Assembly: GCF_900168115.1 (NCBI RefSeq)
Contig: NZ_FUZC01000015.1
Location: forward strand, 1-64,000
Direction of reading: 5' to 3'
DNA from: Salegentibacter salinarum
GTDB taxonomy: Bacteria > Bacteroidota > Bacteroidia > Flavobacteriales > Flavobacteriaceae
DNA: 64,000 nt
How positions within the stretch are numbered: the stretch's first letter is position 1; each line of letters starts with the position of its first letter. Below, piece by piece: positions 1 through 22,087 of the stretch. Under the pieces are notes generated by a model that made no database searches, had not been told where the DNA came from, and was given only the letters and a program-made list of their open reading frames with translations. A program made the translations under genes and the position numbers.

Positions 1-335
1 TTCTCACAATAAATCTTGTTTCAACCATAGGCTCATACACTGTTTCACCTATGTCTGTGAGATCTCCCGCGGTAAGACATATCACTTTCATTCCATATAT
101 CCGCATCATCTACACCCTGATCTCCGTATAGCTTTAGGACTTCGCTTTGTATGGCAAGCTCATCCAGATCAGCTATGCCTTATATGATGTTCGTGTTCCT
201 CGGACCGGAACTTTGCCGCAGGCTTCCTTCAGATTCCACCTCACGATGGACACCCTTGCCTTTGGCTAATGATAGGTAGCTATAAACCCCCATAACGGAC
301 TTGCACCGTCAAGTGATATGCCATGCACGGCACAC
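1..335 (-). mobile_element. Group II intron, 5' portion (domain I), runs off the left edge
   Basis: Read on the minus strand the segment begins with GTGTGCC at 335, matching the GUGYG 5' end of group II introns, and continues with domain I stretches I recognise from bacterial group II introns (GTGCAAGTCCGTTATGGGGG near 300; GAATCTGAAGGAAGC near 240; GGTCCGAGGAACACGAAC near 210). A short hairpin loop at 144-159 carries CATA, which could pair with TATG at the end of the 5' exon (EBS1/IBS1-like), but this is tentative. No reading frame is expected here; the intron-encoded reverse transcriptase/maturase, if present, would lie beyond the window. The element sits immediately after the terminator of the tail-specific protease gene. 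The domain I looks too elaborate for a class C intron, so the class is left open. Confidence 0.8.
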
Positions 336-21631: not shown

Positions 21632-21704
21632 GGTGCCTTAGCTCAGTTGGTAGAGCAAAGGACTGAAAATCCTTGTGTCCCTGGTTCGATTCCTGGAGGC
21701 ACCA
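21632..21704 (+). tRNA. tRNA-Phe (GAA)
   Basis: Full cloverleaf of 73 nt: acceptor GGTGCCT pairs with AGGCACC, D arm with AGCTCAGTTGGTAGAGC, anticodon stem AAGGA/TCCTT around loop CTGAAAA (anticodon GAA), T arm with GGTTCGATTCC. Discriminator A at 21704. The 3' CCA is not fully encoded (ACC then T). Confidence 0.97.
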
Positions 21705-21708
21705 CCTT

Positions 21709-21742
21709 AAAAGCCCGATACACTTAGTGTTTTCGGGCTTTT
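21709..21742 (+). terminator. Intrinsic terminator of tRNA-Phe
   Basis: 10-bp stem (21709-21718 with 21733-21742) with a small inner stem, followed by T-rich sequence. It directly follows the tRNA. Confidence 0.85.
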
Positions 21743-21796
21743 TTAATTTTAACCTCAATAGGTTTCCAGGAAAGATTTTCAAACTTTCTTAAAAAC

Positions 21797-21832
21797 AAAA
21801 AAGCCTCTTTCCGAATACACGGAAAAAAGCTT
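21797..21832 (-). terminator. Intrinsic terminator of the ncRNA candidate
   Basis: 13-bp stem with two G-U pairs (21820-21832 with 21801-21813), 6-nt loop, followed on the minus strand by TTTTGTTTTT. There is no minus-strand CDS for it to serve. Confidence 0.75.
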
Positions 21833-22050
21833 CTCATTGGTTAGCCAAATCCACACAACATAGGATTAACTGGCTAACTACACGCCCTGAATTACCAGGG
21901 CAAACAACACAACTTAATTTTAATACTAAAAGTGAAATATCAACTTCTAGGGTTGGGGTATAAACCCAAATTTTTTATATACAACCAATGACTTAACCCG
22001 GTCTCTAATATTTAATTCTCCCTCCTATTCCCCGTGGGTTTAAAAGAGGG
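21797..22050 (-). ncRNA. Candidate structured non-coding RNA (about 250 nt)
   Basis: Between the tRNA terminator and the sensor kinase no gene fits, but the minus strand has a promoter, several hairpins and a terminator in the right order. From 5' to 3' on the minus strand: a hairpin of CCCTC/GAGGG type (about 22051-22021), a GGGTT/AACCC hairpin (about 21970-21950), GCCCTG/CAGGGC (21901-21896 with 21889-21884), a 13-bp stem GTTAGCCA plus GGATT (21878-21863 with 21852-21840), then the terminator. No ORF longer than a few codons is present. It could be a 6S-like or other regulatory RNA; I cannot assign a family. Confidence 0.5.
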
Positions 22051-22054
22051 CTGG

Positions 22055-22087
22055 CAAATATACAATTTCTTCTTTCTATTATACAAA
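22055..22087 (-). promoter_or_regulatory. Promoter of the ncRNA candidate
   Basis: On the minus strand TTTG (22087-22084), 21-nt spacer, TATATTTG (22062-22055): same boxes as the tRNA-Phe promoter. Expected transcription start about 22050. Confidence 0.65.

Follow-up and report, generated by a model that had tools for sequence, protein, structure and literature searches.

A conserved small RNA gene predicted in Salegentibacter salinarum, with an exposed seed complementary to sites preceding nucleotide-synthesis genes

What is encoded between the tRNA-Phe gene and the TPR/HATPase sensor protein gene of Salegentibacter salinarum? In the window (the whole stretch of 64,000 nucleotides that was analysed), the first-pass annotation had placed an RNA gene candidate at this position, consisting of a minus-strand promoter, about 250 nt without an ORF, and a terminator, in an order and spacing compatible with one transcription unit. 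The promoter was confirmed at 22087-22055: read from the window sequence, TTTG (22087-22084, minus strand) is followed by a 21-nt spacer and TATATTTG (22062-22055, minus strand), a Bacteroidota sigma-A type arrangement that is kept in most genomes of the genus. In F. psychrophilum the sigma-A box TAnnTTTG lies at -12 to -5 (PMC9723704), which places the predicted start of the RNA near 22050. The terminator arm and its T run end at 21797 (minus strand), giving a predicted primary transcript of about 254 nt, and no ORF of 60 aa or more was found on the minus strand between promoter and terminator. The proposed order of promoter, ORF-free stretch and terminator was borne out in the sequence. For the terminator, the T run was as annotated, but the stem, described as 13 bp, folds as 16 pairs including G-U. 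The features of the locus are as follows.

22055-22087, minus strand: promoter, TTTG-N21-TATATTTG
21797-22050, minus strand: predicted non-coding primary transcript, about 254 nt
21918-22050, minus strand: variable 5' extension
21797-21917, minus strand: conserved functional module
21904-21913, minus strand: seed GUUGUGUUGU, usually unpaired
21884-21901, minus strand: hairpin A
21840-21878, minus strand: hairpin B, GUUAGCC/GGCUAAC with an inner AUCC/GGAU stem
21797-21835, minus strand: intrinsic terminator GAAGCUUUUUUCCG..CGGAAAGAGGCUUUUUU, from sequence and fold

The RNA gene is convergent with tRNA-Phe (21632-21706, plus strand) and divergent from the sensor protein gene. Between tRNA-Phe and the RNA gene is a hairpin flanked on either side by T runs (window 21714-21748), probably a terminator common to these two convergent genes. 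A cis-regulatory leader or riboswitch was rejected, as the RNA ends in a terminator facing tRNA-Phe and has no downstream gene on the same strand. Folding of the 259-nt stretch gave -79.3 kcal/mol (z -4.2), and the 3' 124 nt alone gave z -7.2; in both cases, none of 200 shuffles was as stable.

The first-pass annotation could not match the RNA to a family, and the Rfam 15 search agreed, with no family matching this stretch at gathering scores. At a loose E-value threshold, the stretch gave chance matches alone, mostly to terminator hairpins, and among 16 diverse related loci only tRNAs were matched.

A blastn search recovered the RNA from each of the 14 other genus genomes, with conservation of the promoter, the start and the 3' ~130 nt, and none of the middle. 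A covariance model of the 3' module (A2/R1, 17 sequences) scored 136.2 bits on the window copy, and matched 15 of 15 genus genomes and 96 of 299 genomes of the family Flavobacteriaceae. A second model (R2, 43 sequences) scored 110.4 bits on the window copy, and matched 45 of the 50 family genomes in an order-wide sample. With looser filters, many family genomes missed earlier showed real copies on inspection, and nearly all the Flavobacteriaceae genomes searched appear to contain the module. Outside the family no convincing copy was found, and weak matches in three other genomes (G677, G704, G721) were, on inspection, ordinary terminators. Judged from its sequence and conservation, the stretch is a real, previously undescribed small RNA gene, whose transcription we infer.

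The module contains, in order, the single-stranded seed GUUGUGUUGU, hairpin A, a linker, hairpin B, a CAAUG linker and the terminator. The first-pass annotation had proposed that stems failing to be conserved in close relatives would speak against the gene. The stems are conserved, and pairing is kept in related genomes while the sequences of hairpins A and B vary. Variants of hairpin A include GCCCUG/CAGGGC, UCCCG/CGGGA, UCCUG/CAGGA and UCCCA/UGGGA, and in hairpin B, C-G pairs are replaced by U-A. These compensatory changes favour a function at the RNA level. Exactly three outer helices were predicted in 74 of 78 distinct copies, which together have 52 different first stems. A hammerhead-like CUGAUGA string seen in one clade was set aside because it is not conserved.

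The seed stands apart from these variable stems. GUUGUGUUG is invariant in 78 of 78 distinct copies, an apparent invariance that is inflated because the copies were found with models containing the seed; in a few weak copies the seed does differ (L120, L126). At least 8 of the 10 seed nucleotides are unpaired in 71 of the 78 folds, and seed accessibility is 0.85, compared with 0.45 when the remainder of the RNA is shuffled. For the window RNA at full length, the unpaired value of the seed is only about 0.6-0.8. A long-range helix between the seed and ACCAAU, predicted by RNAalifold and compatible with most of the sequences, was rejected as the main fold because single-sequence folds prefer an open seed; it is a possible alternative state.

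The exact seed complement ACAACACAAC occurs five times in the S. salinarum genome, one occurrence being the RNA gene itself. Two of the other four lie directly before start codons: one abuts the ATG of prs, and the other is 12 nt from that of carA. A shorter 8-mer, CAACACAA, occurs within 22 nt of the genuine starts of prs, carA, purL, purM, tkt, GAPDH, dnaA, rluF and one unknown gene in the same genome. At dnaA (L313, C20:97995), a ACAACACAA site lies 3-4 nt before the start codon, and the RNA might therefore also touch replication initiation.

A pattern search blind to gene function (ACAACACAACN{0,25}ATG) was then applied to 60 family genomes, a genuine start being an ATG that opens a real gene and lies outside any covering ORF. 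The matches listed include at least 31 genuine gene starts from 8 genomes, and most of the target gene identities were checked with NCBIfam or Pfam. Among these listed starts, 18 belong to purine or pyrimidine synthesis (purH and purF three times each, purB, purD and carB twice each, and purC, purE, purK, purL, purM and pyrG once each), 11 to feeder pathways (rpe three times, serC twice, and rpiB, folD, gcvP, glutamine synthetase III, ribB and GAPDH), and two are unrelated. Nucleotide synthesis accounts for an estimated 1% or so of genes. The 18 of 31 among the matches listed are thus far beyond chance, with the caveat that the genomes share ancestry and that three of them (G069, G096, G066) contribute 27 of the 31. 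Raw site counts were not clearly above those of a backward-pattern control, but that control says little, since CAACACAAC is identical when reversed and is therefore shared.

Leaders of purF and purM, picked by their coding sequences and not by the site, gave an independent view. The exact 10-mer was present in 14 of 143 purF leaders and in 6 of 80 purM leaders, ranking first in each case among 210 words of equal composition (means of 0.47 and 0.23, respectively). Most purF and purM leaders have no exact site, which suggests that sites come and go within the family. They are not found at every gene in every genome, and purM of Salegentibacter holothuriorum, the closest named relative by PurM (93%), lacks an exact site. 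In seven genomes (G031, G033, G160, G199, G243, G282, G300), purF leaders without ACAACACAAC carry roughly AAAGCGAAAAYATTT before the ATG, perhaps a different control element. Predicted duplex energies for the eight named leaders of the S. salinarum genome were -12.5 to -18.2 kcal/mol, whereas the best of 45 window genes reached -10.2, and none of 1000 shuffled seeds reached the mean duplex energy of prs, carA, purL and purM, in a test that is partly circular.

Because the invariant, exposed tip of a conserved, structured RNA gene is complementary to sites concentrated at nucleotide-gene starts, the pathway is probably controlled as a unit. Our main reading, with a probability of roughly 0.7, is that the RNA is a trans-acting antisense sRNA on nucleotide-synthesis mRNAs, most likely repressing them as one regulon. 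Its functional part would be the 3' ~120 nt, in which the seed GUUGUGUUGU is held open by the two hairpins and the terminator. The seed would pair with sites of the ACAACACAAC type, located 0-25 nt ahead of the start codon, in mRNAs that serve purine and pyrimidine synthesis, the supply of PRPP and the feeder pathways (pentose phosphate, serine/glycine, one-carbon). Such pairing would cover the ribosome landing site, leading most likely to joint repression as a nucleotide regulon. The median leader in F. psychrophilum is 24 nt (PMC9723704), so a duplex of 10-13 bp lying no more than 25 nt ahead of the ATG would occupy most of such a leader. In Bacteroides, FopS and GibS repress by blocking initiation (PMC11697453), and by analogy blocked initiation would be the simplest expectation here. 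Both the actual pairing of seed and site and the choice of repression over activation are predicted from these sequences.

The C/A-rich site could instead be a translation enhancer, or be bound by a protein at nucleotide-gene leaders, with the RNA a protein-binding or sponge RNA competing for that protein, or one that only looks like an antisense of the site. In some of the genomes CA-rich leaders are common, and words that shift the CA repeat score highly too. A general enhancer, however, would mark many pathways, whereas the genuine matches listed concentrate on one. The RNA also carries the complement of the motif and not the motif itself, and therefore cannot mimic the single-stranded site for the same protein. 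We regard this explanation as unlikely.

The genomic settings of the module raise another explanation. Of 85 copies, 53 are preceded by tRNA-Asp(GTC) and then by a first hairpin with its T run. No promoter intervenes, so these copies are probably transcribed by read-through from the tRNA gene. Other copies start directly at a TAnnTTTG promoter beside the seed (L088, L115, L118, L123, L125). The third setting, that of the window, has its own promoter and the variable 5' extension, with 68-187 nt from promoter box to module in relatives; this extension is confined to the type found in the window's genus, and elsewhere tRNA-Asp takes its place or it is absent. The occurrence of three different settings suggests that the module is the functional unit and that the upstream context is exchangeable.

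In two genomes (G301 and G007), a tyrosine integrase gene lies 3' of the tRNA-Asp/module pair, and after another 25-31 kb comes a second module, either adjoining a 3' fragment of tRNA-Asp or about 0.5 kb past it (L133/L134 and L135/L136, respectively). Second or third copies 2-31 kb from the tRNA-Asp copy were also found in G195 (L132) and G001 (L138), and the extra copies of these four genomes often adjoin a tRNA-Asp 3' fragment. From this arrangement, islands integrating at tRNA-Asp seem to bring their own copy of the RNA. The element might accordingly be part of a tRNA-Asp attachment site, or a tRNA 3' trailer, serving integration or maturation and not regulation, as the 53 linked copies and the two integrase-associated duplications would allow. 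Against this, copies with their own promoter and no tRNA, including that of the window, keep the same module; no tRNA-Asp fragment was found in the window; and the compensatory hairpin changes speak for RNA function. We consider it improbable that the element is a mere attachment site or trailer.

Several other arrangements were observed at these loci. The module occurs twice within about 0.5 kb at L052 (G147), L107 (G028) and L071 (G308), and the duplication in G147 includes a second complete tRNA-Asp gene, making it a tandem duplication of the whole unit. In the S. salinarum genome, tRNA-Asp (L139, C30, after 155248) is followed by the hairpin and T run, then by the start of a group II intron-like sequence and the contig end. 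The intron-like sequence occupies the place of the module in other genera, and the tRNA-Asp-linked copy of this genome may have been lost or displaced. At the contig start, the window contains a match to the group II intron D1-D4 family (RF02001, 153 bits, window 77-250, minus strand), which probably belongs to an intron present in several copies and responsible for the assembly break.

Among described RNAs, Rfp18 of F. psychrophilum is likewise a structured sRNA, conserved in Flavobacterium and thus of the same family, with proposed mRNA targets (PMC9723704). Rfp18 affects metalloprotease mRNAs through its third stem-loop (PMC9723704), whereas the RNA studied here presents an unpaired 5' seed to nucleotide genes. 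Compared by these descriptions, homology with Rfp18 appears improbable, although the transcript may be one of the F. psychrophilum Rfp RNAs.

FopS and GibS of Bacteroides thetaiotaomicron share a conserved single-stranded seed and a terminator hairpin with the present RNA, and pair at translation initiation regions to repress, as we propose here (PMC11697453). Compared by description, they differ in having polysaccharide-utilisation targets and another seed; FopS has 14 copies per genome, whereas the present family usually has one, often behind tRNA-Asp, with two extra hairpins (PMC11697453). The pfl motif RNAs are likewise associated with purine and one-carbon genes, purH and folD among them, but pfl is a cis-regulatory leader of each operon, whereas one separate RNA is proposed here for many mRNAs (PMC2864571).

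The suggestion in the first-pass annotation of a 6S-like RNA, binding RNA polymerase, can be dismissed: its length and promoter/terminator layout fit, as does the similar size of 6S-Flavo (RF01685), likewise a non-coding RNA of Bacteroidota, but 6S-Flavo is a separate gene elsewhere in this genome (contig C23, 94.6 bits, above its cut-off), the RF01685 covariance model gave no match at the window RNA, and the conserved fold has three separate hairpins and a single-stranded 5' tip in place of a long hairpin with a central bubble.

The RNA would thus be a new family of a known kind, the base-pairing sRNA, with a candidate target set that is unusual in spanning a pathway, and its tie to tRNA-Asp is also unusual. 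Aspartate is a nucleotide precursor, which makes the linkage suggestive, as speculation, of a signal. A regulator acting on the whole of de novo nucleotide synthesis in Flavobacteriaceae is, to our knowledge, undescribed, and our literature search found none for this family; it likewise found no sRNA linked to tRNA-Asp in flavobacteria and none that acts on purine synthesis. That one seed matches, in some genomes, the leaders of the majority of purine genes offers a directly testable answer. The RNA family is absent from Rfam 15, even though nearly every sampled member of Flavobacteriaceae, a large environmental family, carries it, and control of the whole nucleotide-synthesis pathway by one small RNA would be unusual. 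More tentatively, and at somewhat less than even odds, this family-wide sRNA, usually co-transcribed with tRNA-Asp, could be the shared control of both purine and pyrimidine de novo synthesis in Flavobacteriaceae, with the copy carried by tRNA-Asp mobile elements keeping the circuit intact. If so, one antisense seed would do the job performed elsewhere by PurR-type repressors, and nucleotide supply would be tied to tRNA expression.
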